From Haloplanus aerogenes (GTDB lineage: Archaea; Halobacteriota; Halobacteria; Halobacteriales; Haloferacaceae), in assembly GCF_003856835.1 (NCBI RefSeq), contig NZ_CP034145.1, forward strand, positions 1,364,001-1,428,000: a stretch of DNA of 64,000 bases. Reading direction: 5' to 3'. Below the pieces are notes generated by a model. It worked only from the letters and a program-made list of their open reading frames with translations, had not been told where the DNA came from and ran no database searches. Each line of letters starts with the position of its first letter. Positions within the stretch are counted from its first letter, which is position 1. The translations under genes and the position numbers were made by a program. Shown here in pieces: positions 8,701-9,471 of the stretch.

Positions 8701-9471
8701 ATGTCCGGCCCATCGAACGCCGCGCTCGAAGCCGCGCTCGACTCGCTGATCGACACCGGCCTCGTCGACGAACGCGACGACGGAAGCCTCGTCACGACCG
8801 AGGAGTTCGAGGCGACCCGCCGCATCTATCGCGACACCTACGGATCGGCCGACGACGCCGCCTTCCGGCAGACGGTCGCCGACGTGTTCGGCGTCGACGA
8901 GGCGACGGCCGGCGAGCGGATCGACGCCGGGGCGATCACCCGCGAGGATCTGGTCGCCTACCTCTCGCTTCGGTCGGCGCTAGACAACGAGGCGTCGGAG
9001 ACGCCTCGGGAAACCGGCGAAGCCGGTGACAGCGAGGAGCTACGCTCCTCGGGCAGTCGGTCGGAGACCGACGACGACGACGACGTCGACGACGAGCGAC
9101 TGGCGACGATGGCGTCGCTCGTTGCGGAGATTTCGCCCGGATCGCCGGTGCCCGAACGGGTCGAGGAACTCGACGACGAGTCGTGGCGCGCTTTCCTCGA
9201 CGACCACCCGGACGCCGTCGTGACGGTGTGGCGCCACGACTGCGCACCCTGTGAAGCGTTGAAAGAAGACCTCGACGCGGTGTTGTCCGAACTCCCGGAC
9301 GGCGTCGCCGTCGCGGGCGTCGACGGCGAGTCGGTGCCGAACTTCCGACGCACGTTCGACGTCGACAGCGCGCCCGCAGTCTGTTGTTTCTGCGGGGGCG
9401 ACCTCGCAGACACGCTGACGGGTCGGCAGTCGACCGACACCTACGCGGACCGGTTCGCGGAGCTGTACTAG
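8701..9471 (+). CDS. Thioredoxin-like protein with N-terminal alpha-helical domain
   Basis: 256 residues, starting at the ATG directly after the livF stop, so probably in the same operon. Residues 1-95 form an unfamiliar domain (EEFEATRRIYRDTYGSADDAAFRQTVADVFGVDEATAGERI). Residues 96-140 are a low-complexity acidic linker encoded by a hairpin array. Residues 165-256 form a thioredoxin fold with VVTVWRHDCAPCEALKEDL, in which CAPC is the redox pair, followed by FDVDSAPAVCCFCGGDLAD with further cysteines. It lacks a signal peptide, so it acts in the cytoplasm. Its partner is unknown. Its stop overlaps the convergent uspA-like stop by the palindrome CTAG. Confidence 0.75.
   Translation: MSGPSNAALEAALDSLIDTGLVDERDDGSLVTTEEFEATRRIYRDTYGSADDAAFRQTVADVFGVDEATAGERIDAGAITREDLVAYLSLRSALDNEASETPRETGEAGDSEELRSSGSRSETDDDDDVDDERLATMASLVAEISPGSPVPERVEELDDESWRAFLDDHPDAVVTVWRHDCAPCEALKEDLDAVLSELPDGVAVAGVDGESVPNFRRTFDVDSAPAVCCFCGGDLADTLTGRQSTDTYADRFAELY
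8988..9072. repeat. Four consecutive hairpins with 3-base loops inside a coding region
   Basis: Within 85 bases there are four inverted repeats back to back: arms 8988-8996/9000-9008 (CGAGGCGTC, loop GGA), 9013-9018/9022-9027 (ACCGGC, loop GAA), 9033-9040/9044-9051 (CGAGGAGC, loop TAC) and 9056-9062/9066-9072 (GTCGGTC, loop GGA). All arms pair perfectly. The array keeps the reading frame of the thioredoxin-like gene and encodes its polar linker. It looks like an in-frame palindromic insertion. Confidence 0.8.

Follow-up and report, generated by a model that had tools for sequence, protein, structure and literature searches.

The window, the whole 64,000-nt stretch of DNA that was analysed, carries on its forward strand a gene of 771 bp (8701..9471, +) that starts at ATG 8701 or GTG 8692 and stops at 9469-9471. 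The C-terminal part of its product is a thioredoxin domain (Pfam Thioredoxin, residues 154-247, E 1.2e-8). For the N-terminal part a Pfam search gave no significant match. Within this thioredoxin-like gene lies an inserted segment (8983..9075, +) of two tandem 45-bp units, i.e., 90 bp or 30 codons, the edges of which can be placed only to within a few bases, as GAC repeats flank it. Each unit is built from two hairpins, A and B, with 3-nt loops. In unit 1, hairpin A (8988..9008, +; CGAGGCGTC-gga-GACGCCTCG) has a stem of 9 bp with arms at 8988-8996 and 9000-9008, and this stem is found again in unrelated genes; hairpin B (9013..9027, +; ACCGGC-gaa-GCCGGT), preceded by the linker ggaa, has a stem of 6 bp with arms at 9013-9018 and 9022-9027. 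The linker GACAG (9028..9032, +), which is recurrent across the family, joins this unit to unit 2. There, hairpin A (9033..9051, +; CGAGGAGC-tac-GCTCCTCG) has a stem of 8 bp with arms at 9033-9040 and 9044-9051, and hairpin B (9056..9072, +; GTCGGTC-gga-GACCGAC) has a stem of 7 bp with arms at 9056-9062 and 9066-9072, the linker ggca before it and GAC codons after it. These are exactly the four perfect in-frame inverted repeats (9, 6, 8 and 7 bp with 3-nt loops, at 8988-9072) that an earlier note on this DNA had pointed out.

The array was compared with 3000 synonymous recodings of the host gene, in which we counted hairpins with a 3-nt loop and arms of at least 6 bp in a 110-nt stretch. The recodings had a mean of 0.17 and a maximum of 2 such hairpins per stretch and none reached the 4 of the real gene, which rules out a chance origin of the array. 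In the rest of the window every 110-nt stretch holds at most 1. Outside arrays, hairpins with 3-nt loops are in no excess over other loop sizes, the loop-size distribution being flat, and a genome-wide habit of making such hairpins is thereby ruled out; since 3-nt loops are not in excess there, the array is a distinct feature. Folding of the mRNA, which the earlier note had proposed, predicts a stable structure (array z-score -3.4 as RNA and -4.3 as DNA). No known structured RNA family was recognised: Rfam covariance models gave no match at E ≤ 0.1 in the seven loci tested, including that of the window (L001).

In the window array, a 45-bp (15-codon) repeat that is dispersed in haloarchaea stands twice in tandem. 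Searched by BLAST, the segment had matches at 18 further places in its own genome (3.5 Mb, two contigs), the best with an E of 1e-13, and the copies inspected there consisted of 3-nt-loop hairpins or a degraded form of such. A covariance model gave 66 matches at E ≤ 0.01 in the same genome; the match in the window (9028-9077, 72.8 bits, E 1.9e-18) covers unit 2. These own-genome counts rest on model searches together with individually extracted stretches. Matches to the model were present in 35 of 40 related genomes, those of the same genus having 9-71 each. When 295 genomes were drawn from the phylum, 43 had a match at E ≤ 1e-6 and all 43 were haloarchaea, i.e., of the same order; genomes from outside the order in this draw had none. 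When 84,980 species were scanned with an exact DNA pattern, 22 places were hit, which by record title are all haloarchaeal except for one titled only as Euryarchaeota, the genera being Haloplanus, Halorubrum, Halobellus, Halohasta, Halolamina, Halomicrobium, Halapricum, Halorientalis, Halorussus, Natrinema and others. Carriage by viruses is rejected, as an exact pattern scan of IMG/VR gave 0 matches and phage records likewise gave none; among plasmids there was one hit, from Halocatena salina. BLAST, covariance model and pattern scan have thus each found other copies, many in all, in the DNA-level search of haloarchaeal genomes that had been suggested with the original observation.

The unit runs from the linker GACAG through hairpin A and the linker GGCA to hairpin B, which together make 45 bp. 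Hairpin A has the outer stem CGAGG (or CGTGG or CGTCG) and hairpin B the outer stem RYCGG; in both, the inner stem is variable and the loop has 3 nt and varies in sequence. GGCA, TGGCA, GACAG, AGCA and GACA are the common linkers across the family. Stems of 9 bp in A tend to occur together with 6-bp stems in B, and 8-bp with 7-bp stems, so that the length of 45 bp is kept.

The two arms of a stem change in concert. A first alignment of 14 perfect units, which were selected for pairing, had 34 cells changed on both sides of a pair and 0 changed on one. In the 67 distinct units that the model matched in the own genome, the paired cells made up 96.9%, a percentage biased upward by the covariance model and alignment, which favour paired copies; slid controls were 29-49% paired. 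The same 67 units had 166 two-sided vs 8 one-sided changes. The near-lack of one-sided (G-U) states argues against slow compensatory RNA evolution and suggests that arms are copied or modules exchanged.

Perfect arms, minimal 3-nt loops and two-sided change would also fit palindromes that were made locally, each by replication fold-back or template switching writing the second arm, with codon bias and convergent Asp/Glu/Ser-rich linkers accounting for the likeness between loci. In the MerA-like gene of Halobellus (L213), hairpin B has grown symmetrically by 3 bp on each side and retained its 3-nt loop, as arm copying would have it, and parts of PMC8604942 and PMC8794818 document arm homogenisation by template switching in other organisms. 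However, 3-nt-loop hairpins should then be in excess outside arrays, which they are not, and unrelated genes and genera share the linkers GGCA and GACAG as well as entire modules of 19-21 bp; CGAGGAGCcacGCTCCTCG, for example, is identical in photolyase, PhzF-like, MutS and molybdo-oxidoreductase-like genes. Loop inversion, the hallmark of template switching between arms, was seen in 10 of 293 loop pairs, i.e., 3.4% vs 3.4% in shuffled pairs, and as a template-switch signature it is rejected. We consider purely local origin unlikely. Local template switching may keep the stems perfect, but it leaves their dispersal unexplained.

While the DNA palindrome persists, the encoded peptide varies freely (EEPRSS, EGRSPS, EASETPRE, VEHGST). 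This speaks against a selected protein motif, in which the peptide DSEEPRSSGSRPQAD would be kept as a useful halophilic linker and the palindrome would be a by-product, and so do the absence of the motif from most orthologues and the related hairpin arrays without a clear coding frame in Halorubrum. The use of one frame only, the acidic and hydrophilic character of the peptide and its tandem expansion after the histidine-kinase N-box are what such selection would give, but on balance we find a protein motif very unlikely as the origin of the repeat.

Copies of the repeat are precisely present or absent at defined sites. Presence and absence were compared using one genome per species, and the thioredoxin-like gene was aligned with orthologues from 9 other Haloplanus genomes. 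Several of these lack the linker at the same place (e.g., G011, L149), one (G002) has two units with other stems and one (G003) has a small hairpin remnant. The earlier note had named, as the finding that would speak against its reading, the same linker in all orthologues with no conserved hairpins and no other genomic copies; this is not what the alignment and the genome searches gave. We think that in the thioredoxin-like protein the insert is a tolerated linker without further function.

The conserved enzymes carrying copies are E1-alpha, MutS, photolyase, XTP pyrophosphatase and a MerA-like reductase. E1-alpha (Pfam E1_dh) has 12 extra residues in the window genome, and exactly those 12 residues are missing from the Bacillus E1-alpha of known structure (1w85). 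A second Haloplanus (G001) has a different, partly degraded insert of 15 residues at the same place, and 4 other Haloplanus orthologues are empty. XTP pyrophosphatase (Ham1) has a 45-bp insert in the window genome alone. The photolyase gene is filled in 2 Haloplanus genomes (G000 and G004) and empty in 10. A three-gene tree puts the two carriers, which have unlike B hairpins, into separate clades where their sisters are empty; because the carriers are not sisters and the inserts are not alike, at least two gains at one site are the simplest reading. MutS has an intact insert in G000 and a decaying one in G002, perhaps also in G006. In the MerA-like gene the element lies between GTC and GACGAC in three genera, with exact empty sites in 13 orthologues. 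It has 45 bp in Halorubrum sodomense (G120) and Natrinema zhouii (plasmid) and a 51-bp form in Halobellus captivus, and a longer, degraded insert is seen in G395. Between H. sodomense and N. zhouii the element differs in its loops alone, every base of its stems and linkers being the same; the flanks in this gene are 80% identical (third positions 62%). Judged from their sequences, the host ORFs appear intact, with core enzymes among the carriers. Part of the presence/absence pattern could be due to loss or gene transfer rather than new insertion.

We also noted that the MutS loop after RNLHFAAER (L235-L245) is a length-variable hotspot in many Haloplanus, where low-complexity segments may be decayed elements.

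The inserts have net lengths of 36, 45 and 51 bp, with varying edges. No constant target-site duplication was found at the defined sites, with a possible GAC at some of them. A MITE has terminal inverted repeats shared with an autonomous transposon and usually a target-site duplication. No mobilising enzyme or autonomous partner of the repeat was found.

The earlier note had also considered that the array might form an mRNA structure slowing ribosomes between domains. The predicted fold is indeed stable, but some insertions lie within a single domain of a conserved enzyme and others between domains, most orthologues lack them, related hairpins lie outside genes in Halorubrum, and stems change without the G-U intermediates expected under RNA selection. 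The proposal is thus unsupported, and we regard a function of this kind as extremely improbable.

Nearly all strong coding copies share one reading frame and one orientation. The expected frame (GAC AGC GAG ...) came first by codon score in 46 of 59 own-genome units and second in 5, the exceptions being mostly weak matches, noncoding places or shifted units within longer arrays. Stop-codon avoidance is ruled out as the cause, as the consensus unit is free of stop codons in each of its six frames; only the expected frame is acidic and hydrophobic-free. GAC or GAT directly follows hairpin B in 32 of 41 units. In the coding sequence of the window, GACGAC is in codon phase (phase 0) in 74% of cases only, which makes target phase alone insufficient to explain the single frame. 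We infer that the single frame results from entry at GAC codons together with purifying selection that removes inserts of basic or hydrophobic character.

In outline, paired hairpins whose outer stem and linker are constant resemble REP/BIME elements, and Y1-type enzymes are common in haloarchaea. The repeat might then be an element of this sort, mobilised through its hairpins by an IS200/IS605-type (Y1, RAYT-like) transposase. However, five genomes without a Y1 transposase (G004, G005, G011, G017 and G018) have 9-35 element matches, whereas G016 and G019 have 8 and 5 Y1 matches and zero elements. Because their distribution does not follow that of the element, Y1 transposases are excluded as a requirement. 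Moreover, the GTAG and CGTC tags that, in the part of PMC3733652 concerned, define the two big REP families are not among the common linkers. A REP/BIME-like origin is therefore highly improbable.

In-frame palindromic coding elements are already known as a kind, and coding palindromes are not new to archaea overall. The Rickettsia palindromic elements (RPE) and the Wolbachia palindromic elements are repeated palindromes, in frame in conserved genes at solvent-exposed parts of the proteins and also found outside genes (PMC3767692, PMC2229807). The haloarchaeal repeat has the properties by which RPE-type elements are recognised: it is dispersed in many copies, palindromic, and in frame in conserved genes with empty orthologues. 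The likeness to the insertions of Rickettsia that the earlier note had seen is borne out by the many copies, the empty orthologue sites and the hairpins that are kept while their sequence changes. As an analogy of behaviour, which extends to in-frame repeated palindromes, copies outside genes and a mobiliser that is unknown in both, the comparison is apt, but the architecture differs. RPE are described as 105-146 bp (about 100-150 bp) with a long stem-loop structure (PMC2229807), whereas the haloarchaeal unit, set apart here by description, has 45 bp and two short 3-nt-loop hairpins and is GC-rich, often tandem, and made of modular covarying stems.

Other coding palindromes were compared in the same way. 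Those that Suyama et al. (2005) reported from Methanocaldococcus jannaschii, as PMC2996958 and PMC2229807 cite them, are likewise archaeal palindromes fused in frame into protein genes; our pattern scan met the haloarchaeal unit in haloarchaea only. PARCEL (palindromic amphipathic repeat coding elements) are also tandem palindromic coding repeats that spread within and between genomes, but they are 25-residue amphipathic repeats of membrane proteins with imperfect dyads, and their authors saw none in archaea (PMC2996958). The PATEs and SMR of Haloquadratum walsbyi, as portrayed in the relevant parts of PMC3119063, are transposase-free haloarchaeal repeats without target duplications, the mobiliser of SMR being unknown. 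In those same parts SMR-A is given as ~110 bp with terminal inverted repeats and other mobile elements as its targets, PATEs are derived from IS605-type ends, and neither is described as an in-frame gene insert. Nematomorph mitochondria have perfect inverted repeats inside functional coding sequence too, but there both arms encode conserved residues (PMC6649704), whereas the haloarchaeal repeat is dispersed and adds a loop. The two-hairpin modular build, the order-wide spread and the concerted arm change set the haloarchaeal family apart. The statement that such elements are not described for haloarchaea held in a search of open-access papers, which gave no report of them; subscription papers lay outside its scope.

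We consider it likely that the array consists of tandem copies of a dispersed, non-autonomous haloarchaeal palindromic repeat that spreads in a hairpin-dependent manner, is filtered by selection, expands and decays. Specifically, we infer that the repeat is mobile at present, depends on DNA hairpins and targets GAC. Its spread would be a copy process that needs hairpins folded in single-stranded DNA, with Asp (GAC) codons favoured as entry points. Copies would survive where a polar, acidic, hydrophobic-free loop of 15 residues falls at a tolerant site of the protein. Established units would duplicate in tandem and old units decay, giving variable linkers, and template switching at the sites could keep the arms identical. 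It is possible, although doubtful, that the repeat stands for a new class of mobile repeat with transposase-free, hairpin-templated spread, a process that copies the constant outer stem and the linkers, rewrites the inner stem pairwise round the minimal 3-nt loop and, by entry at GAC, makes insertion largely codon-phased. If so, the element would be a generator of new acidic protein loops across haloarchaea.

Coding palindromes, reported mainly in intracellular Rickettsiales and one methanogen, are now found in a free-living archaeal order. Most haloarchaeal species examined carry elements, some of them dozens, with defined empty and filled sites in well-studied enzymes. Two questions become testable with these, namely by what means such elements move and whether proteins really gain new segments from them. 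The concerted arm change, nearly without wobble intermediates, also records in natural genomes a process at the DNA level by which hairpins stay perfect.

Related hairpins also occur outside genes. Halorubrum has repeats several hundred bases long, assembled from hairpins with the same A-type and B-type stems and linkers, in stretches where no coding frame is clear (L175-L179, L183-L188, L190 and L191), and no Rfam family was found in those tested. At L176, L177, L184, L186, L190 and L191 (Halorubrum G120 and G256) these are ~400-700 bp repeats with many 3-nt-loop hairpins and the same linkers, with conserved strings such as AAAGCCCCAG and CCCCTTTGAGTCCC at their borders. The short coding units may derive from these repeats. 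Two Halorubrum loci (L190 296-318 and L177 467-516) have AT-richer stems of ~10 bp, GCCAGAAATC and ATCAGAACGC, with the same 3-nt loop; because these hairpins retain it, the loop size is kept even where the stem is fully unlike the family. In Haloplanus a few copies look noncoding, one such unit (L067 1400-1560) lying shortly 3′ of a tRNA-like 3′ end (GGGTTCGAATCCCTGTCGGAGCA).

In histidine-kinase-like genes, arrays are repeatedly found directly at the N-box (RNSVEHGST), at loci L016, L021, L022, L037, L039, L044, L046, L084, L085, L173, L174, L181, L189 and L193. The N-box could be either a hotspot or the place where the A module arose. The native N-box DNA seems to form the first arm of hairpin A in these arrays, and their tandem units repeat SVEHGST.
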